Made by a program: the position numbers and the translations under genes
Notes under the pieces: generated by a model
The model's input: only the letters and a program-made list of their open reading frames with translations
Database searches by the model: none
What the model was told of the DNA's origin: nothing
Assembly (NCBI GenBank): GCA_024228575.1
Contig: JAAETH010000017.1
Span: forward strand, 1-56,899
From: Actinomycetes bacterium
GTDB lineage: Bacteria > Actinomycetota > Acidimicrobiia > Acidimicrobiales > Poriferisodalaceae
Length of the DNA: 56,899 bases
Direction of reading: 5' to 3'
In this document: positions 2,002 through 39,498 of the stretch, in pieces
Numbering within the stretch: position 1 is the first letter of the stretch
How the letters are laid out: every line of letters starts with the position of its first letter

Positions 2002-2078
2002 AGTGCCAGGGTTCGATTGCAGTAGTCGTAGTTTCTGCCGCTTAGAGAATCAAAGTCCGGCACCACGCCGATGTTTGA

Positions 2079-2084
2079 TACGCT
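2079..2084 (+). promoter_or_regulatory. -10 box TACGCT of abiEi (leaderless-type)
   Basis: TACGCT lies 7 bases before the ATG at 2092 and no Shine-Dalgarno sequence is visible. This favours 2092 over the upstream ATG at 2071 as the start and suggests a leaderless transcript. Confidence 0.45.
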
Positions 2085-2091
2085 AGACGGC

Positions 2092-2895
2092 ATGATCAGG
2101 ACAGGGGTCCCTCCAGGCGAATTCGCCGACTGGCTCATTGGCCAGGGCCGGCACTTCATCACCACAACCGAGGCGGCCAAGGTCCTCGGCGTTGCTCCCG
2201 CGACGGTGCCGAAGAGTCTCGAGCGAGCCCGTGAGGCAGGCAAACTCATTTCGGTGACGAAGGGTGGATGGGTCCCTGTACCGCCCGAACACCGCAGCGC
2301 GGGCGCTCCCCCTGCCAGCCACTACATCGACCAACTGATGAGCTACCTCGGCCATTCGTACTACGTCGGACTCCTGTCGGCAGCCGCTATCCACGGGGCA
2401 TCTCATCAGTCGCCGATGGTCTTTCAAATCGTCACGCCCGCCAGGTTGCGAGAACGCAGGGTAGGCCGTAGCCGGATCCAGTTCCTGCAGCGAGAAGGCA
2501 CCGCCGGTAGGCCTATGAGACAACACAAGGTCCCCACCGGCAGGATCTGGGTATCGACTCCCGAGGTCACCGTTTTCGACCTCATTGAGTCGCCCCGGGA
2601 AAGCGGGGGCCTCTCCAACGTCGCGACCATCATCGGGGACCTCCTCTACGACAACCGTCTCGACCCGCAGGCATTGGCTGACCTTGCGAGCCTGTACCCG
2701 ACCGCTGTCGCGCAGCGGGCCGGGTATCTGGTCGACCTCATGTCCAAAGAGACTGATATGGACATGGACACCGAGGCTCTGCAGCGCGCCGTGCAAGGTT
2801 GTCGCTATCGGGAGCTGTCGCCGAGCCACGGCGGCGGCAAGCACGACGAGCGTTGGCACGTGATGGTCAACACGGCGATCGAACACGACCTGTGA
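2092..2895 (+). CDS. abiEi: AbiEi-type antitoxin, type IV toxin-antitoxin system
   Basis: The product is 267 residues (an ATG at 2071 would add seven). The N-terminal 60 residues form a winged-helix DNA-binding domain (FITTTEAAKVLGV, then a helix and a wing ending KGGWVPVP). The rest matches the AbiEi C-terminal antitoxin domain, with HYIDQLMSYLGHSYYVGLL and STPEVTVFDLIESP as typical landmarks. AbiEi binds its own promoter and neutralises the AbiEii toxin without forming a stable complex. Its stop overlaps the start of the toxin gene (GTGA), so translation is coupled. The pair causes abortive infection against phage in characterised cases; here that role is inferred. Confidence 0.85.
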   Translation: MIRTGVPPGEFADWLIGQGRHFITTTEAAKVLGVAPATVPKSLERAREAGKLISVTKGGWVPVPPEHRSAGAPPASHYIDQLMSYLGHSYYVGLLSAAAIHGASHQSPMVFQIVTPARLRERRVGRSRIQFLQREGTAGRPMRQHKVPTGRIWVSTPEVTVFDLIESPRESGGLSNVATIIGDLLYDNRLDPQALADLASLYPTAVAQRAGYLVDLMSKETDMDMDTEALQRAVQGCRYRELSPSHGGGKHDERWHVMVNTAIEHDL

Positions 2896-3668
2896 TCACC
2901 GAAGCCGACCTGGCTCACTGGCGTCGCGTCGTACCGTGGTCGACCGACGAACAGGTCGAACAAGACCTAGTGCTTTCGCGGCTCATTATCGAGGTCGCCA
3001 ACAACCCGCTACTGGGTGATGAACTTGTCTTCCGTGGCGGCACGTGCTTCCACAAACTCTGGCTGACACGCCCGTGGCGGTACAGCGAAGACCTCGACTA
3101 CGTCCGGCGAACCGGAGACGGTGTTGGCCCGGTCTTCGATGCCATCCGAAACGTCGCCGCAGCGGTCGGCTTCGACGACGTTCGCACTCAGATCGGCAAA
3201 CATCCCAAGGCGCGCCTGCGGTCGACGTTCGTCGGTGGCGGCCGGCTACAGATCAAGATCGAGATGAACACATTCGAGCGCTCGCCCGCACTAGCGTCCG
3301 TGACGCGTGCCTACGAGGTCGACAGCCCCTGGTTCACCGGCCTGGCTCAGGTGCCGACGTTCGCCATCGAAGAACTGATCGCTACCAAGATTCGGGCACT
3401 TTTCCAGAGACGCAAGGGACGTGACCTGTTCGACATCTGGCTCGCAGTCGACCGGGGCGGGGCCACACCGGAACAGATCGCAGCCTGTTTCGGGCCCTAT
3501 CGCCCCGACGGCTGGACACCCGCCAGGGCGCTCGACAACCTCGCAGCGAAGCTCGAAGATCTGGACTTCAGCACCGACCTTGACAAGCTCTCCACCAACT
3601 GGCCGGAGGGCTACACGATTGAGGATGGCGCACGCGTGGCGCGGACGATCATCGGGCGACTCACGTGA
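2892..3668 (+). CDS. abiEii: AbiEii-type nucleotidyltransferase toxin
   Basis: The start is the GTG at 2892, which overlaps the TGA of the antitoxin gene. Upstream in-frame codons belong to antitoxin coding sequence. The product is 258 residues. The nucleotidyltransferase core is visible: FRGGTCFHKL (residues 48-57) with the GG motif and YSEDLDYV (64-71) with the two metal-binding aspartates. IEELIATKIRALFQRRKGRDLFDIW is the conserved helix pair of the AbiEii/MenT family. Known members transfer nucleotides, for MenT to tRNA acceptor ends, and arrest growth. All key motifs are present, so the toxin is predicted to be active. Confidence 0.88.
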   Translation: MITEADLAHWRRVVPWSTDEQVEQDLVLSRLIIEVANNPLLGDELVFRGGTCFHKLWLTRPWRYSEDLDYVRRTGDGVGPVFDAIRNVAAAVGFDDVRTQIGKHPKARLRSTFVGGGRLQIKIEMNTFERSPALASVTRAYEVDSPWFTGLAQVPTFAIEELIATKIRALFQRRKGRDLFDIWLAVDRGGATPEQIAACFGPYRPDGWTPARALDNLAAKLEDLDFSTDLDKLSTNWPEGYTIEDGARVARTIIGRLT

Positions 3669-6681: not shown

Positions 6682-9600
6682 TCAGGGTCTGGTGAACGTC
6701 GACGTGCCGTCGGACAGGGTGTCTGTTTCGGGGTCGTAGCCAAGGGCCACCTCGAAGTCGCCGAGGGGTTCGTCGACCGTCGCCGTGTGACAGCTGAAGC
6801 TCACCGCTACCGGCAGCGAATCCCCGAGGCTGGTTGCAGCCGAATCTGATGTTGCCGGGTAGGCACCGCCAAACACCTGGCAGGCTGCGACCTCGTCGTC
6901 ATGCCACCTAACTCTGTAGGTCCAGAGGGTCACACCGCCGCGCTCGACCCAGCCGGTGGCGTCGATCTCGATCGTCTGGGTGCTGTTGTCGTTGGCATCG
7001 ATTCCCGTCCACGATCCGACCAGCCGCTCCGGCGAGGGGACGGGCTCTTGGGGGGTGAGGCCGACGATCGGGTGTGGCGGCGGATCGGCACCGAGGCTTC
7101 CGATGAACGGCCGGCTCGAGAAGTTGAACACCCCACCGTCGGAGGCGACCATCAAGTAGCCGTCGGCGAACGAGACCATGCCGTTGACCGGTTGAGCGAG
7201 CTTCGCCCCGGGTTCGAGAACACCTGGTACCGAACCCACAAACTGGGCGTCACCGAAGGCGAACACACCACCATCGGAAGCGACCAGCCAATAACCCGCC
7301 GCTTGGGTCGAGACAATGCCGACGACTGGGCCATCGAGCACCACGCCGGGCAGCACCTCGGGAACCGAACCGTGAAACTGGGCATCACCGAAGGCGAACA
7401 CACCACCATCGGAACCGACCATGTAGTAGCCGTTGCCCGACGACGTCGCGACCGAGTTGATGATGACGCCCACGAGGTCGAGTTCCGCTGCATCACCGAA
7501 GTGTTTCGCCGATCCGAACGGCAACGCCCTGCCCCTGTCGGTGAACACCCAATAACCATCTCCCGTCGGCATCGTCGAGATCGCGGCGGGAACCTCACCG
7601 GGGTCGAGCACGCTGAGATCAACATCGCCATGATGTGCGGCAGTACCCAGTGGCCACACGCGCCCGCCACTGTCGAGGATCCAGTAGCCGTCACCGGTCG
7701 GAAGGGCCTCGAGGGCTATGGCATTGAGCACAGGGACGACCATCTCGTCGACCACGTCGCCGTAGGTGATGGCATCGCCGAACGAGAAGACGTGACCGTC
7801 GAGCTCGAGCATCCAGTAGCCCGAACCGACCGCCGGACGGACCACGTTCGACTCGCTCGACGAGAGACTCGAGCCTGCTGAGTTGACTCCCCTGACAGTG
7901 AATGCCAAATCGCCGTCGTGGGTCAGATCGGCGAAGACGGCATCGTTGCCGACAACCGCCTTCGTGACGAGCTCGGTTCGGCTTCCCGCCTCACCGGACC
8001 ATGCGGTGATCTCGTAGTGCGATACCTCATCGACCGATGGCGCCCACCAGACAACGACACTCCCATCACCCGCAAGGGCATAGGGGGTCCCCGGTGGTTC
8101 GGGAATGATGATCGCCGCAGTCGGCGTGACCCAGTCCGAAGGAGTGGAGGTCTCCGAGGTGCCAACAGCGTTTGTGGCCGAGATGGTGAAGCGATACCTC
8201 CCCTCGTTCTCGAGGCCGTCGAACACGACGTCTGTCGCAGGTGCCACAACGTCGATGGTCGCCCCGCCCGGGAAGGCGGCGACGGTGAAATGGTCGATGG
8301 CCCTCCCCCCATCCGCTGGTGCATCCCAGGCCAGATGTGCCAAGCCATCGCCTGCGAACACGGTGGGGGCATCGGGCTGCGACGGTGCGGTTGCCGCCGG
8401 CAGTGGCGTGAACGTCGCCGACGGTTCTGATGCGGCGCCAGCCCCGCCCACCGTGACCAGATCGCTGTAGGCGCGCACCGTGAACGAGTACGCCGTGCCG
8501 TTGTCGAGCCCATCGATGATCGTCGTGGTGTTGCCGCCTTCGACGAGCTTCTCGATGTCGCCCGGGGTGACCACGATCTCGTAGTACGCGATCGGCCGGC
8601 CGTTCTCGGCGGCCGGCGTCCAGACAAGGCTGACCTGCCCATCACCGGAGGTGCCCTCGGGCGCACCGGGCGTGCCGGGCGACCCGAAGGGAGTGGCGAC
8701 GGGCGACGCGGCGGAGGCCCGTGACAAACCGATGGCGTTCAATGCGGCGACCGTGAAGGTGTAGTCGGTGCCGTTCGTCAAGTCGTCGAAGGTGACGAGG
8801 CTGGTGTCGACCCCGATCTGCCTCACTTCATCTCCCGGAGTTCGGGTGACCCGATAGCCGGTGACGGCCGATCCTCCGTCGTCGGGGGGTGGGCTCCACC
8901 ACACGACGACACTCTGGTCGCCCGCACTCGCCGAAGGAGCGGCGGGCTGGGCCGGAGCGACGGCTGGAATCAGCATCGCCATCACCTGGCTGGGCCCGCC
9001 CTCGTCGCACCCTTCGGACGTGTGCCACGACAGAACCCGCTTTCCGGCACCCGACACCGCTACGGCGGGTTCGAGTGCGGATCGAGCTGTGGGAACGTCG
9101 GTGACGCGCCGTTGATCTCCAACGAGTAGGCCATCTGCGGAGACGGAGCGGGTCCAGATGTTGGAGGCGCCCTCGGCGACGCTCTCGTCGCTGCCCTGCC
9201 ACACAACCACGTACCGATCCTTGGCCGCGTCGTAGGCGACCGTCGGCGAGAACCCGCCCGAAGCGGTCGAACCATCGGTGCCCATTTCCGAGACACGAAT
9301 GGGCTCACCGATCACCGCTCCGTCAGCTCCGATCAGGCGAGCCCAGATCTCGGATTCGGCTCCGTCGAGCCCCTCGGCGCCACCCTGGCCCGACCACACG
9401 ACAAGCGCACCGGGCCGATCGGTGTTCGTTGCCACGTCCGGGCTGGTGACGTCGGAGTTCTGGGTACCCGACCCTGTCGAGACGAAGAGTCGGGCGAACG
9501 GGTCGGGTTCGGTTCCTTCGAGCACGTTCAGCACAATCGATGTGCCGGACTTGTTTGCTACAAGAATGAACCCGGTGAAGGGATCGACGGCGACCGCTGG

Positions 9601-10272
9601 TGGGTCTGTCGGATCGGCGTCGGGGTGAACAACAAACGTCTCACCACCAACAACGCCGGACCTGCCAAGTCGCCGACCCAGGATCTTTTGGGCGACCTCG
9701 TCGACCCAAACAGCGACGTACTCGTCGTGGCGCGCACCGTCGTACGTTATGTCGGGCAGGCTGAGGGTCTCGCCGTCTCCACTGACGAGCGTCGACGTGC
9801 CGGCAATCGGTTCACCCAGCGCCGACAACTGTTGAGCGACAATCTGGCTCTGAGTCGAACCGGCGACACCGGTCGAATACACGACGACGTACGAATCGGC
9901 GACATCGGCCCCAACACTGAATGGGTTGAACGCCAACTTCGGGTCGACAGCGTGTTCTGAAGGGCCGCCTGGCACCACGACGGACGAGACGAGATTGACC
10001 GAACCGGGAAGCGGAGCCTGACCCGACGAGCCGATGGAGATCGAGTTGATCTCGGTTCCGACCGATCGATGGCCCTCGTCGGACACGAAGGTGGCGACGA
10101 CTTGATCTGAGTCCGGATCGGACGCCAGTGCCACGGACTGCCTGACGCCACAGCCCGGCGTGTCGATCTTCACTGCGTCGGCGGTTTCGCCACGAGATGG
10201 GCTGGCGCCAGACGCCACGACAGCGACGAGTACAAATCCGATGACTGATGCTCTGCTCAGCAATGACACCAC
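6682..10272 (-). CDS. large secreted protein with four FN3 domains and six GYW/GVFAFGDA repeats
   Basis: The product is 1196 residues. A signal peptide (about 1-29, VIGFVLVAVVASGASPSRG) is followed by about 400 residues of propeller-like beta repeats (DRYVVVWQGSDE, VLSWHTSEG). Four fibronectin type III domains come next (about 440-810), each with a GDGxVxVxW core and an LTNGTDYTFTVAA-type end. Then there are six 40-50-residue repeats of the form GYWxVxSDGGVFAFGDAxFxGS (about 815-1085), and a beta-rich C-terminal domain with no clear match. The GYW repeats are abundant in Acidimicrobiia and probably fold as a beta propeller. The protein likely acts at the cell surface in adhesion or glycan binding. 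No catalytic motif was seen. A CATAAT box precedes the start. Confidence 0.85.
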   Translation of the reverse strand: MVSLLSRASVIGFVLVAVVASGASPSRGETADAVKIDTPGCGVRQSVALASDPDSDQVVATFVSDEGHRSVGTEINSISIGSSGQAPLPGSVNLVSSVVVPGGPSEHAVDPKLAFNPFSVGADVADSYVVVYSTGVAGSTQSQIVAQQLSALGEPIAGTSTLVSGDGETLSLPDITYDGARHDEYVAVWVDEVAQKILGRRLGRSGVVGGETFVVHPDADPTDPPAVAVDPFTGFILVANKSGTSIVLNVLEGTEPDPFARLFVSTGSGTQNSDVTSPDVATNTDRPGALVVWSGQGGAEGLDGAESEIWARLIGADGAVIGEPIRVSEMGTDGSTASGGFSPTVAYDAAKDRYVVVWQGSDESVAEGASNIWTRSVSADGLLVGDQRRVTDVPTARSALEPAVAVSGAGKRVLSWHTSEGCDEGGPSQVMAMLIPAVAPAQPAAPSASAGDQSVVVWWSPPPDDGGSAVTGYRVTRTPGDEVRQIGVDTSLVTFDDLTNGTDYTFTVAALNAIGLSRASAASPVATPFGSPGTPGAPEGTSGDGQVSLVWTPAAENGRPIAYYEIVVTPGDIEKLVEGGNTTTIIDGLDNGTAYSFTVRAYSDLVTVGGAGAASEPSATFTPLPAATAPSQPDAPTVFAGDGLAHLAWDAPADGGRAIDHFTVAAFPGGATIDVVAPATDVVFDGLENEGRYRFTISATNAVGTSETSTPSDWVTPTAAIIIPEPPGTPYALAGDGSVVVWWAPSVDEVSHYEITAWSGEAGSRTELVTKAVVGNDAVFADLTHDGDLAFTVRGVNSAGSSLSSSESNVVRPAVGSGYWMLELDGHVFSFGDAITYGDVVDEMVVPVLNAIALEALPTGDGYWILDSGGRVWPLGTAAHHGDVDLSVLDPGEVPAAISTMPTGDGYWVFTDRGRALPFGSAKHFGDAAELDLVGVIINSVATSSGNGYYMVGSDGGVFAFGDAQFHGSVPEVLPGVVLDGPVVGIVSTQAAGYWLVASDGGVFAFGDAQFVGSVPGVLEPGAKLAQPVNGMVSFADGYLMVASDGGVFNFSSRPFIGSLGADPPPHPIVGLTPQEPVPSPERLVGSWTGIDANDNSTQTIEIDATGWVERGGVTLWTYRVRWHDDEVAACQVFGGAYPATSDSAATSLGDSLPVAVSFSCHTATVDEPLGDFEVALGYDPETDTLSDGTSTFTRP
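7240..7421. repeat. near-identical 47-base direct repeats inside the FN3/GYW gene
   Basis: Positions 7240-7286 and 7375-7421 match at 45 of 47 bases and encode the GGVFAFGDAQF part of the fourth and fifth GYW repeats. This suggests recent internal duplication or gene conversion, and copy number may vary between strains. Confidence 0.8.
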
Positions 10273-35372: not shown

Positions 35373-35448
35373 CCTCCGAGGCGACGGGTGTCGACACCAG
35401 GGTGGGCTGGTTCCGACCGCACCTGCACAAGTTGGGCATAATACGTCG

Positions 35449-36891
35449 GTGCAGCTGACGAAGGCCCTCACCGCAATACTGGTCATTGCCCTGGCCGCGA
35501 CAGCATGTTCGGGGTCGAGCGACACAACCCAGAGCACGACCCCCCGGACAGGCACCCCGACCACCACCGTAGATGCACGGGTCGAAACGACCGACGTCAC
35601 GGCGGTCGATGCACCGGTGCCTCCAGTCCTCGACCCGGCCTGGGACATCGCCGGCAGCGACGCCCTATTTGATTCCGGCGAGATACTGACCTTCGAGTTG
35701 ACGCTCGACCCCGAAGACCTGGCCTTCCTGGACGCCGATCCAACCGCCGAGGAATACGTCGAAGGTTCGTTTGTGTTCAACGGCCAGACGGTCGGCCCTG
35801 TCGGCATCCGGTACAAGGGTTCGCTCGGATCATTCATCGAATGTGTGGACGGACCCAACCTGTTCGAGCCCTCGGGTGCCAAGAGCTGCTCGAAGTTGTC
35901 GATGAAGATCAAGATCAACTGGGACGACCCCGGCGCCGAGTTCTTCGGGCAACGCAAGCTGCAGTTCCACGCCATGAACCGCGACGAGTCGATGATGCGA
36001 GAACGGCTCGCCTATCTCATGTTCGCCGAGATGGGTAGCGCGTCGCCTCGAACCGCACCCACAAGACTCATCATCAACGGTGAGTACGCCGGACTCTTCC
36101 TACTCGTCGAGAACATCGACGGCAGGTTCACCCGCGACCGCTTCGACGACGGCACGGGCAACCTCTACAAGGAAGCCTGGCCGTTCACCCACGAAGGTGA
36201 GATCACCGGCGAAGAAGTGTTCATCGACTCGCTGCGAACCAACGAGGACGAGGATCCTTCGGCAGACCTCATCCGACAGTTTGCGCGCGACATAGAGGAC
36301 ATATCGGGCAGCGACGATGTCACTGCGGTGCTCGAGGTCCTGAACCGGTCGACCGACCTCGATGACCTGCTCGGTTTCGCAGCGGTCGACCGCGCGATCA
36401 TCAACGATGACGGGCCATTCCACTGGTATTGCGGCGAAGGCGATTGCGCACCTCACAACTACTTCTGGTACGAGGAGCCGGCCAGCGGGAAGATCCACCT
36501 CATCCCTTGGGACCTCGACAACTCGCTTCTGCCCGAAACCGCTCGGCCCATGGCAGTCATCAGGATCGCCGACGAGTGGGGCCAGACGAGCAGCGACTGT
36601 CGGCCATTCGCATTCGGACCGCTGGGAGTACGGCAACGTTCAGCCTCGTGCGATCCCCTGGTCGCCGCCCTGGTATTGCTCGAGGACGAGTACAAACAAC
36701 GCCGAGCCGAATTCCTCGCGGGCCCATTCGATCCCGGGAGGGTTGCCGGGTTGCTCGACGAATGGTCCAGCCAGCTCGCCCCCTATGTCGACGAACAAGC
36801 CGCGGCGCTTCCAGGTGAACCGACACTCACCCGATTCGAAGCTGCAATCGCCGAACTGCTGACCATCGTCAGCGCCCAACAGGAGGTCTGA
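35449..36891 (+). CDS. CotH-family protein kinase-like lipoprotein
   Basis: The GTG at 35449 (CATAAT box 6 bases upstream) opens into a lipoprotein signal with lipobox ATAC at about residues 17-20. A Thr-rich linker follows, then the CotH kinase domain: RKLQFHAMNRDESMMRERLA, LIINGEYAGLFLLVENID, NLYKEAWPF and IPWDLDNSLL. CotH proteins are atypical secreted kinases that phosphorylate surface proteins. The product is 480 residues and sits outside the membrane. It is the first gene of a tight trio with DUF4956 and VTC genes (gaps of 2 and 1 bases), an arrangement that recurs in other bacteria. Confidence 0.88.
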   Translation: MQLTKALTAILVIALAATACSGSSDTTQSTTPRTGTPTTTVDARVETTDVTAVDAPVPPVLDPAWDIAGSDALFDSGEILTFELTLDPEDLAFLDADPTAEEYVEGSFVFNGQTVGPVGIRYKGSLGSFIECVDGPNLFEPSGAKSCSKLSMKIKINWDDPGAEFFGQRKLQFHAMNRDESMMRERLAYLMFAEMGSASPRTAPTRLIINGEYAGLFLLVENIDGRFTRDRFDDGTGNLYKEAWPFTHEGEITGEEVFIDSLRTNEDEDPSADLIRQFARDIEDISGSDDVTAVLEVLNRSTDLDDLLGFAAVDRAIINDDGPFHWYCGEGDCAPHNYFWYEEPASGKIHLIPWDLDNSLLPETARPMAVIRIADEWGQTSSDCRPFAFGPLGVRQRSASCDPLVAALVLLEDEYKQRRAEFLAGPFDPGRVAGLLDEWSSQLAPYVDEQAAALPGEPTLTRFEAAIAELLTIVSAQQEV

Positions 36892-36893
36892 CG

Positions 36894-37478
36894 GTGTCAC
36901 AGTCGTCCCTGCTCATCACCGACGCAGTCGCCGTAGTCTTGCTCGTCTTCGTCCTGTACTTCCCTCGGTATCGGCGCCGCGACATGGTCGTCGCCCTGCT
37001 CGGTATCAACGTCAGTGTCCTGTCGGTGACCACCGTGCTGGGCAAGTCCACGATCTCGGCTGGCCTCGGGCTGGGCCTGTTCGGGGTGCTCTCGATCATC
37101 CGGCTGCGCTCGAACGAGCTGGACCAGGAGGAAGTGGTCTACTACTTCTCCGCCCTCGCGGTCGGGCTCGTCTGCGGCATCTCGATCGACCCGGCCTGGG
37201 CGAGTCCGGCATTGATCGGGGCGATTCTCGCCGCCCTGTACGTCGGCGACCACCCGATGTTGTTCCGGCGTGCTCGGAGCCAGACCCTCACCCTCGACTC
37301 GGCATTTACCGACGAGGGTGCTCTCATCGAACGACTCGAGCAACTTCTCGGAGGGCGGGTTCGCCGCATCAAGGTCAGGCGGGTCAACCTGGTGAACGAC
37401 ACGACGGTCGTCGATGTGAGGTACGACCTGATCACAGACGACACACGCTCGACCGACGACTCGACCCAGGCCCGTTGA
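36894..37478 (+). CDS. DUF4956 membrane protein
   Basis: The product is 194 residues from the GTG at 36894; AGGAGG of the preceding gene's end lies 7 bases upstream. Helices are visible near 7-25 (LITDAVAVVLLVFVLYF), 33-60, 75-95 and 100-115. FGVLSIIRLRSNELDQEEVV is the conserved loop of DUF4956. The C-terminal about 70 residues are a soluble alpha/beta domain (LIERLEQLLGGRVRRIKVRR). The function is unknown, but the family nearly always neighbours VTC-domain genes, so it probably forms the membrane part of a polyphosphate or related complex. Confidence 0.85.
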   Translation: MSQSSLLITDAVAVVLLVFVLYFPRYRRRDMVVALLGINVSVLSVTTVLGKSTISAGLGLGLFGVLSIIRLRSNELDQEEVVYYFSALAVGLVCGISIDPAWASPALIGAILAALYVGDHPMLFRRARSQTLTLDSAFTDEGALIERLEQLLGGRVRRIKVRRVNLVNDTTVVDVRYDLITDDTRSTDDSTQAR

Positions 37479-37479
37479 G

Positions 37480-38259
37480 GTGCCCCACCGACCGATCGAG
37501 CGCTCTGTCGCCGGGCTCACACCAATCGATCTCAACACCCTCAACACCCTCGCGTACCTACAAACACGCACCGACCGCAAATACCTGTTGACCATCGATG
37601 AAGCCGAAGAGCTGGTCGACCGTTTCAGCGGCAGTTGTGCGGCGCTCGAGATCGAGCGGACTCGCTCGTTTCGTTACGAGACCACCTACTTCGACACCCC
37701 CGACTACATGTTTCACAAGGCGACGGCATATCGACGTCCGCTGCGCTACAAGCTGCGGGTGAGGCGTTATCTCGACACCGATCTCAACATGTTCGAGATC
37801 AAGGCAAAGGACCGGCGCAACCGAACCGACAAGCGACGTACCGAGATCGCGTCACCGGTGCAGCCTCTCACCGACCCGGCCGTGCGGTCCCTTCTCTCCG
37901 TCCATCGACCCGACGCGCCGACCGCCGATCTTGTCGCGAGCCTGACCACCCGATTCCGCAGGGCGACACTGGTGGGCCGCGACGCGTCCGCGTTCGATCC
38001 CACAACCGACACCGAAGCCGACTTCCGCGTCACCATCGATTCTGACGTGCACTTCGATTCGGCGGATGGGCGAACCATCGATTTTGGCCGTGTCGTACTC
38101 GAGTCGAAGTCGTCGACGAAGGCCTGCACCGTCGATCGCTGGTTGTGGTCGCGCGGCATCCGCGAGACCCCCATCAGCAAGTACTGCACACCGATGGCCG
38201 CATTTCACCCGAACCTGCCATCGAACCACTGGCATCGCACCCTGGCCCGTTTCTTCTGA
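37480..38259 (+). CDS. VTC-domain polyphosphate polymerase-like protein
   Basis: The product is 259 residues with a GTG start one base after the DUF4956 stop. The beta-barrel tunnel residues of the triphosphate-tunnel (VTC) family are present: DRKYLL (32-37), YETTYFDTPDY (66-76), YKLRVRRY (90-97), FEIKAKDRRNRTDKRR (105-120), VVLESKS and ISKYC. In yeast Vtc4 this domain makes polyphosphate from ATP. In bacteria the role with CotH and DUF4956 is not settled; building a phosphate-containing surface polymer is a plausible inference. Confidence 0.85.
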   Translation: MPHRPIERSVAGLTPIDLNTLNTLAYLQTRTDRKYLLTIDEAEELVDRFSGSCAALEIERTRSFRYETTYFDTPDYMFHKATAYRRPLRYKLRVRRYLDTDLNMFEIKAKDRRNRTDKRRTEIASPVQPLTDPAVRSLLSVHRPDAPTADLVASLTTRFRRATLVGRDASAFDPTTDTEADFRVTIDSDVHFDSADGRTIDFGRVVLESKSSTKACTVDRWLWSRGIRETPISKYCTPMAAFHPNLPSNHWHRTLARFF

Positions 38260-38287: not shown

Positions 38288-38662
38288 GTGGCAAATGCAC
38301 CCGAGAAGTTCAGCTATCCGATCAGCGATTCCATCCGCGAGATGGCGATGGCCCTCCCCGACACGACCGAGGGAACGTCCTGCGTCAATCGTGCCTTCAA
38401 GGCGGGGGGCAAGAACTTCGCGTTCCTCGGTGAGAAGCCCGAGGGGTGCGGACTGCGCCTGAAGTTGAGTGATTCGGTGCCAGAGATCGAGAAGCGTTCG
38501 GAGCGCCAGCCCGACCGCTACGAGGTTGGCAAGGGTGGATGGGTGATGCTGCGGTTCCCCGCAGACGCTGCTCCGGACAACGCCGATCTCGAATCGTGGA
38601 TAGTCGAGAGTTTCTGCCTCCTGGCACCCAAGAAGACTTCCGCGAAGCTCGAGAACCGATGA
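38288..38662 (+). CDS. MmcQ/YjbR-like protein
   Basis: The product is 124 residues from the GTG at 38288. The small double-wing fold of the family is suggested by ALPDTTEGTSCVNRAFKAGG, KNFAFLGEKPEG and KGGWVMLRFP. Members bind DNA or small molecules in unknown ways. Its TGA overlaps the ATG of the PIG-L gene (ATGA), so the two are translated together. Confidence 0.75.
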   Translation: MANAPEKFSYPISDSIREMAMALPDTTEGTSCVNRAFKAGGKNFAFLGEKPEGCGLRLKLSDSVPEIEKRSERQPDRYEVGKGGWVMLRFPADAAPDNADLESWIVESFCLLAPKKTSAKLENR

Positions 38663-39498
38663 CACGACCGACGATCCTGTTCCTCCACGCCCATCCAGAC
38701 GACGAGTGCATCCTCACCGGAGCGACGATCGCCGGCGCCGTCGATGCGGGTTGGCGGGTGTTGGTCGCATATGGGACCCGCGGCGACGCAGGCGAAACAA
38801 ACAAGGACCTCACCGGCGACACACTCGGCGAACGCAGGACACGAGAGGCCCTGAGCGCCTGTGCCGAGCTTGGTGTAGACCGTGTCGAATGGCTCGGCTA
38901 CGACGACTCGGGCATGGCGGGCACCGAGACGACCGGCAACGCTGAGGCGTTCAGCAATGCCAGCCTTTCCGAGGTTGCCGCACGGATCGGGCGCACCTTC
39001 TCCGACGAACGGATCGATGCGGTTGTGGGCTATGACCGCCATGGCACCTACGGCCACCCCGATCACGTCCAGGTCCACGCGATCACAAGGCCGACCGCTC
39101 ACGAGGTTGGTGCTTCGTGGGTCTTGGAAGCAACGTACAACCGCGACTACCTCGAGTCGCTCGACGAACACCCCTACAGTGGGACCGTTGCCGACGACCC
39201 GACGGCCTTTGGTGCGTCGTTCGACGAGGTGACGCACTTCGTCGAAGGGCACGAACTGTTCGCGCGCAAGGATGCGGCGATCGCTCACCACCACTCGCAG
39301 GTTCCCGATGATTGGGATCCCGACAACCGTGGCATTGAACAGCTGGACGGCTTCGCCCGCGTGTTCGGCACGGAGTGGTACATCACCCACCGGATCCGTG
39401 GCGGCGCCGACTGGTCTCCCTTCGCCTCCCTGTTCTGCGACAAGTTGTTGTGGTCGGGCGCACCGCCTTCGATGCGCGAGTATGTGCCCGATGTTTGA
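38659..39498 (+). CDS. PIG-L family N-acetyl-sugar deacetylase
   Basis: The product is 279 residues from the ATG overlapping the previous stop; a longer open frame to 38539 is just overlap with the previous gene. Zinc ligands lie in HAHPDDE (residues 10-16) and HGTYGHPDH. YGTRGDAGETN is typical of actinobacterial members such as MshB and Mca, which act on mycothiol intermediates or conjugates. Substrates are N-acetylglucosaminyl or other amides. Its 3' end overlaps the PhyH gene by 8 bases, so the operon continues. Confidence 0.88.
   Translation: MTRPTILFLHAHPDDECILTGATIAGAVDAGWRVLVAYGTRGDAGETNKDLTGDTLGERRTREALSACAELGVDRVEWLGYDDSGMAGTETTGNAEAFSNASLSEVAARIGRTFSDERIDAVVGYDRHGTYGHPDHVQVHAITRPTAHEVGASWVLEATYNRDYLESLDEHPYSGTVADDPTAFGASFDEVTHFVEGHELFARKDAAIAHHHSQVPDDWDPDNRGIEQLDGFARVFGTEWYITHRIRGGADWSPFASLFCDKLLWSGAPPSMREYVPDV

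Follow-up and report, generated by a model that had tools for sequence, protein, structure and literature searches.

In the window (the whole stretch of 56,899 nucleotides that was analyzed), three genes coding for a CotH kinase-family lipoprotein, a DUF4956 membrane protein, and a VTC (triphosphate tunnel) protein form an operon that is a real, conserved, pel-free variant of an already described cassette. The obligate unit of this cassette is the DUF4956-VTC pair, to which CotH is added as a third, exchangeable partner. What is new is above all the one-to-one pairing of DUF4956 with VTC, the phosphate-transport and phytase-like partners of the pair, the gene fusions, and the contradiction of a published statement that the three-gene synteny is confined to Pel loci.

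The operon and the DUF4956-VTC pair

The features of the locus are as follows.

35437-35442, plus strand: CATAAT, a possible -10 element 6 bases 5' of the CotH GTG (from sequence, tentative)
35449-36891, plus strand: CotH kinase-family lipoprotein, 480 amino acids (Pfam PF08757, 1.7e-36); GTG start, TGA stop
36881-36887, plus strand: Shine-Dalgarno-like aggaggt upstream of DUF4956 (from sequence)
36894-37478, plus strand: DUF4956 membrane protein (Pfam PF16316, 7.6e-56); GTG start, TGA stop
37480-38259, plus strand: VTC (triphosphate tunnel) protein, 259 amino acids (Pfam PF09359, 3.5e-20); GTG start

The open reading frames lie exactly where the initial annotation had placed a tightly spaced CotH-DUF4956-VTC operon, and Pfam agreed with its family names, all three matches being above the Pfam cut-offs. 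The genes share one strand and are separated by 2 bases (CotH/DUF4956) and 1 base (DUF4956/VTC). The VTC gene has no obvious Shine-Dalgarno sequence and starts 1 base past the DUF4956 stop, so that translational coupling is likely. The preceding gene stops 76 bases short of the CotH start. A consensus scan detected no sigma-70 promoter upstream of CotH, and a leaderless mRNA beginning at CotH would be compatible with the CATAAT element. An NCBIfam search returned no name for the trio proteins, and a role in anti-phage defense was rejected, with 0 of the 3 proteins matched by PADLOC.

Elsewhere in the window, a PIG-L de-N-acetylase gene (38539-39498, plus strand) lies shortly 3' of the trio; at one other locus (L033), VTC likewise has a PIG-L neighbor, in opposite orientation, which may be coincidence. 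A protein with an AbiEi-type antitoxin domain is encoded at 2071-2895 (plus strand; PF09407, 6.1e-32), and the open reading frame at 2799-3668 could be its partner. A 1196-amino-acid protein with three fibronectin type III domains is encoded at 6682-10272 (minus strand).

We examined the co-occurrence of the families in 99 genomes (the window genome and 98 relatives), in 149 genomes drawn from across the phylum, and in 14 control genomes. Among the relatives, every VTC locus adjoined a DUF4956 gene (22/22); DUF4956 was above cut-off in 20 genomes, of which 19 also had VTC. Across the phylum, DUF4956 and VTC were present in the identical 16 of 149 genomes, which span 7 families and 13 genera, with 18 copies of each and all 18 adjacent; the chance of identical 16-genome sets is 1/C(149,16) = 8e-22 on the assumption of independent genomes, which these are not. 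Among the 14 controls, scored for presence only, a match to one family always came with a match to the other, and this was so in three genomes (Bacteroides ihuae, Corynebacterium glutamicum, and Methanosarcina acetivorans); CotH was also matched in C. glutamicum and M. acetivorans. The gene order is CotH-DUF4956-VTC in the Acidimicrobiia versus VTC-DUF4956-CotH in other actinobacteria; the linkage therefore outlasts rearrangement. These counts from the relatives and the phylum bear out the expectation that the families lie side by side in other genomes. The initial annotation had further treated the trio as the unit, and this held only in part: the linkage of DUF4956 to VTC is constant, but CotH is swapped at other loci.

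The window genome (G000) carries a second DUF4956-VTC pair, on contig C186 (L031:424-1859), followed by a response regulator gene of the OmpR type and a histidine kinase gene (HisKA); upstream, the locus is truncated at the edge of the contig, so that a CotH gene cannot be judged there. A DUF4956 gene apart from VTC is rare. One such case is a CotH-DUF4956 locus without VTC in genome G065 (L045:8305-10211, minus strand), whose VTC sits elsewhere, fused to a beta-helix, and another is found in genome G090 (L029).

Third partners, fusions, and the link to Pel

CotH is the commonest third partner of the pair: it was found within 2 kb of 31 of the 48 pairs examined and was absent from 12, with the remaining 5 at contig ends; because the genomes are related, the 48 pairs are not independent. 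To identify other neighbors, we scanned selected open reading frames with Pfam, because clustering all neighboring frames gave mostly shadow open reading frames. At three loci (L103 to L105), a long open reading frame of one family lies 3' of the pair, and the copy that was scanned (L105) is a Cthe_2159-type beta-helix lipoprotein according to Pfam. On plasmids of Shinella, Aminobacter, and Nitratireductor, the third partner is phytase-like and bears a Sec-type signal; its identity is taken from existing annotation in all three and confirmed by Pfam for Shinella. Since CotH, the beta-helix lipoprotein, and the phytase-like protein all occupy it, the third slot is usually filled by a secreted protein; no recognized third partner was seen at L101, L121, and L122. 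A phosphate transporter lies inside the operon at two loci, as an Na/Pi cotransporter gene directly 3' of DUF4956 (L114) and, in Nitratireductor, as an inorganic phosphate transporter gene of its own that stands between VTC and the gene for the phytase-like protein. Phosphate-transport and phytase-like genes were encountered beside the pair independently.

Two single open reading frames join the parts directly. One (L034:5510-7882, minus strand) reads VTC, a membrane segment with a lipobox, and CotH; the other (L028) reads VTC, a membrane segment, and a beta-helix. Each was seen once, in a draft genome, so that an assembly fault is possible in principle; the two are different fusions of the same VTC end to secreted lipoproteins, and they agree with each other. 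The fusions link VTC to the membrane as well as to a secreted domain.

The initial annotation had regarded the trio as a candidate for an undescribed system, and in this it was mistaken. A cotH gene, a poly-phosphate polymerase gene, and a DUF4956 gene have been reported beside pelDEADAFG in streptococci, clostridia, and bifidobacteria (Whitfield 2020, PMC7112168), and VTC genes with CotH have been reported in a Clostridium perfringens locus (Lepp 2010, PMC2879425). In Streptococcus intermedius, SIR_1592-1594 belong to the same three families, and all three genes have been deleted (Raju 2025, PMC12345266). In one medium, aggregation fell by over half when either the DUF4956 or the CotH homologue was deleted, Pel being up in the former deletion and down in the latter; deletion of the VTC homologue gave no phenotype and left aggregation unaffected (PMC12345266).

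The same study reported that the three-gene synteny was not found outside Pel loci (PMC12345266). With PelG as the sole Pel marker, we found no match in the window genome or in the 98 relatives, and the 16 phylum genomes carrying the DUF4956-VTC pair had none either; PelG was above cut-off in only 2 of the 149 phylum genomes, and neither of these had DUF4956 or VTC. The trio thus exists without Pel, and the pel-free loci contradict the Pel-only statement of Raju 2025. A Pel accessory role in the window genome was rejected on the absence of PelG. The window locus is like the pel accessory cassette (PMC7112168, PMC12345266) in its three adjacent families, published there as an MgtC transmembrane domain plus ACT (DUF4956), a polyP polymerase (VTC), and a secreted CotH. 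It is unlike that cassette in having no pel locus, in a genome without PelG, and in its order, CotH-DUF4956-VTC; moreover, S. intermedius SIR_1594 has an FN3 domain, whereas the window CotH is a lipoprotein without FN3.

Kinship of the three proteins

The VTC protein scored 73 bits against PF09359 (cut-off, 23 bits), and this was the only domain that Pfam found in its 259 amino acids, with no SPX domain and no Vtc-type transmembrane domain. A phmmer search with the protein alone gave no PDB match, profiles being needed; a profile of 20 diverse members reached yeast Vtc4 at 3.4e-21. In the alignment, residues R30, K34, Y70, D72, R93, R95, E106, K108, K118, R161, R183, E208, K210, S233, and K234 correspond to Vtc4 R196, K200, Y241, D243, R264, R266, E279, K281, K294, R361, R373, E426, K428, S457, and K458, respectively. 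All tested Vtc4 residues are thus present in the window protein, in keeping with the initial annotation, whose reading had hung on conserved catalytic basic residues. The equivalents of R264, R266, E426, and K458 were invariant in the 20 diverse members, and that of K200 was kept in at least 90%. Vtc4 R264, R266, and E426 are the residues mutated to inactivate the VTC complex (PMC9911596), and K458 has been described as catalytic (PMC4641920). The structural model of the protein (pLDDT 80) had Vtc4 as its closest solved fold (VIA-align Z 14.5 over 213 residues, 3.3 A), followed by CYTH enzymes (Z 11-13.7), with adenylate cyclases of the same fold also just below Vtc4.

The window system is like the yeast VTC complex (Vtc1/Vtc3/Vtc4; 3g3q, 8i6v, 7ytj) in its Vtc4 tunnel domain and tested active-site residues and in that a polymerase domain is coupled to a membrane part in which basic residues are conserved. 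It is unlike the yeast complex in lacking SPX, in having a separate MgtC-like protein in place of the Vtc transmembrane domain, and in the addition of a secreted partner. A VTC domain gene of Clostridium thermocellum, Clo1313_1989, showed a weaker signal of convergent mutation in ethanol-adapted strains (PMC10503014) and is a possible genetic handle on the family.

DUF4956 has about five hydrophobic segments by hydropathy and a C-terminal beta-alpha-beta-beta domain, predicted to be cytosolic, with a basic strand, RVRRIKVRR, that was not kept in all distant members of the alignment. Among 20 diverse members, Y22 and R72 were invariant and R70 nearly so. In a profile comparison (hhalign), DUF4956 matched MgtC at 94.8% (E 5.3e-8) in both its membrane region and its C-terminal domain, while reversed, column-shuffled, and unrelated controls reached at most 0.6%, and R70 aligned with the arginine of the MgtC motif GFLGAGVILR. 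These alignments make DUF4956 a distant relative of MgtC. It differs from the MgtC/SapB family in its obligate partner (VTC) and in falling below the Pfam MgtC cut-off: PF02308 was not among the matches of the window protein at E values up to 10, and one relative gave 0.024, which does not reach the cut-off. The MgtC reading has already been published for the S. intermedius homologue (PMC12345266), so that the link found here is an independent confirmation and not a discovery. Only 5 additional relative loci, all in genome contigs and 0 in viral contigs, could be added for folding, and the AlphaFold model of DUF4956 is weak for this reason (pLDDT 52). A fold search with this weak model was uninformative, with no match under 1e-3; its weak ACT-like rows are in line with MgtC but are no proof of it.

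The CotH protein carries an N-terminal lipoprotein signal (MQLTKALTAILVIALAATAC, followed by S; lipobox LAATAC, followed by S) and scored 126.8 bits against PF08757. It matched the spore-coat kinase structure of Bacillus cereus CotH (5jd9) at E 9.7e-6, and in an alignment of 13 relatives the conserved positions were K123, E221, K241, D321, N337, and D355, of which E221, K241, D321, and D355 were invariant. The K, E, D, N, and D positions of the spore-coat kinase are thus kept; unlike that kinase, the window CotH is an exported lipoprotein in a VTC operon, without a spore context.

Candidate roles of the cassette

We tentatively propose, at somewhat less than even confidence, that the cassette is a prokaryotic VTC-like machine for a phosphate polymer. 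VTC would polymerize phosphate from ATP at the cytosolic face, and DUF4956 would hold the polymer at the membrane and pass the chain outward; the R70/R72 pair would sit where a membrane helix meets the cytosol, and the C-terminal domain, which is basic, would lie on the chain path. The secreted partner, CotH here, would bind the polymer, be supplied by it, or modify surface targets in connection with it. We favor this reading because VTC always occurs with DUF4956, because VTC has Vtc4 residues and the Vtc4 fold, and because of the phosphate context, the fusions, and the linkage kept despite reordering. The initial annotation had proposed such a route, with a polymer made inside, passed through DUF4956, and used outside. 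Neither refutation test that was run refuted it, and it is the best-supported mechanism; the tunnel fold, the tested catalytic residues, the DUF4956 pairing, the MgtC kinship, and the partner swapping are observed, and the polymerization, the export, and the role of CotH are what we infer. The window genome has PPK1 and PPX, so ordinary cytosolic polyphosphate does not need the operon, and an envelope role would be in line with this. Counted against the machine are the host PPK1 and PPX themselves, the lack of an aggregation phenotype in the S. intermedius VTC deletion, residue D32 of VTC, the weak DUF4956 model, which lends a channel no structural support, and the single-instance fusions. The molecular role of the MgtC superfamily is debated, and to our knowledge MgtC itself is not an established channel. 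A stand-alone machine for polyphosphate export that uses the MgtC-type protein as its translocation path, and whose exported polyphosphate, not ATP, serves an extracellular CotH kinase as phosphate donor, seems very improbable. In the open-access literature, we found no biochemistry for any prokaryotic VTC member, and the earlier remark that the biochemistry of the trio is not established is consistent with everything found.

A regulatory envelope module, which we consider unlikely, would have DUF4956 acting like MgtC on phosphate signaling or ATP synthase, VTC sensing phosphate or nucleotides with any polymer incidental, and CotH phosphorylating surface proteins that tune a matrix polymer. 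MgtC promotes phosphate uptake via PhoR (PMC6658541), the S. intermedius DUF4956 deletion uncoupled Pel (up) from aggregation (down) while the CotH deletion lowered both (PMC12345266), and OmpR-type regulator genes (L031 and L104) and histidine kinase genes (L031 and L121) lie beside the pair. However, no two-component system adjoins the window locus, and all tested VTC catalytic residues are kept in 20 diverse members, which a mere sensor need not do. Quite unlikely, in our view, is a VTC protein that DUF4956 anchors to the membrane and that recovers phosphate there as a tripolyphosphatase or NTP phosphatase. The tunnel fold is common to the CYTH/TTM tripolyphosphatases (ygiF, AtTTM3; ygiF 5a60, Z 13.7), and the phosphate transporters and phytase-like neighbors also suit phosphate recovery. 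Compared by motif position with E2, E4, and E171 of the AtTTM3 acidic patch (the fourth residue, E90, was left out), D32, which replaces Vtc4 T198, stands where that patch has an acid; it is a step toward the tripolyphosphatase pattern and was counted against a polymerase. Against this, the VTC motif is R-x-[DE]-x-K and not the E-x-E-x-K of the tripolyphosphatases, which have glutamates (PMC4641920) at the positions that we pair by alignment with R30 and K210; these two residues, at two of the acidic-patch positions, are basic, as in Vtc4, and K234, the equivalent of catalytic K458 that AtTTM3 hardly needs, is conserved. A polymerase is the better guess for VTC, on residues and model alike, and is not thereby proven.

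The cassette may instead serve an extracellular glycan, as seems to be the case beside pel, phosphorylating or retaining a polysaccharide whose polymer partner is encoded elsewhere in the genome, a reading that we hold to be rather improbable. It draws on the linkage to pel genes known from streptococci, clostridia, and bifidobacteria (PMC7112168) and on the Cthe_2159 lipoprotein, of a carbohydrate-binding family, which replaces CotH in L105 (L103 and L104 have an open reading frame of the same family) and forms a fusion with VTC in L028, but PelG was missing from the window genome, the 98 relatives, and the 16 pair-carrying phylum genomes, and no glycan synthase adjoins the window locus. That unrelated genes are fortuitously co-transcribed is barely credible given the one-to-one adjacency across families, the reordering with kept linkage, and the fusions, and for the DUF4956-VTC pair these observations already refute it.

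That the cassette occurs without pel puts a published statement right, and Pel specificity of the cassette should not be taken for granted in work on Pel. If VTC and DUF4956 make and export polyphosphate, then bacteria and archaea would have a VTC-type enzyme beside PPK1/PPK2, the eukaryotic VTC complex would gain prokaryotic relatives with a different membrane partner, and the MgtC superfamily would gain a member with a testable enzymatic partner. An extracellular CotH kinase fed by polyphosphate, if there is one, would account for the working of a surface kinase where ATP is scarce or absent.
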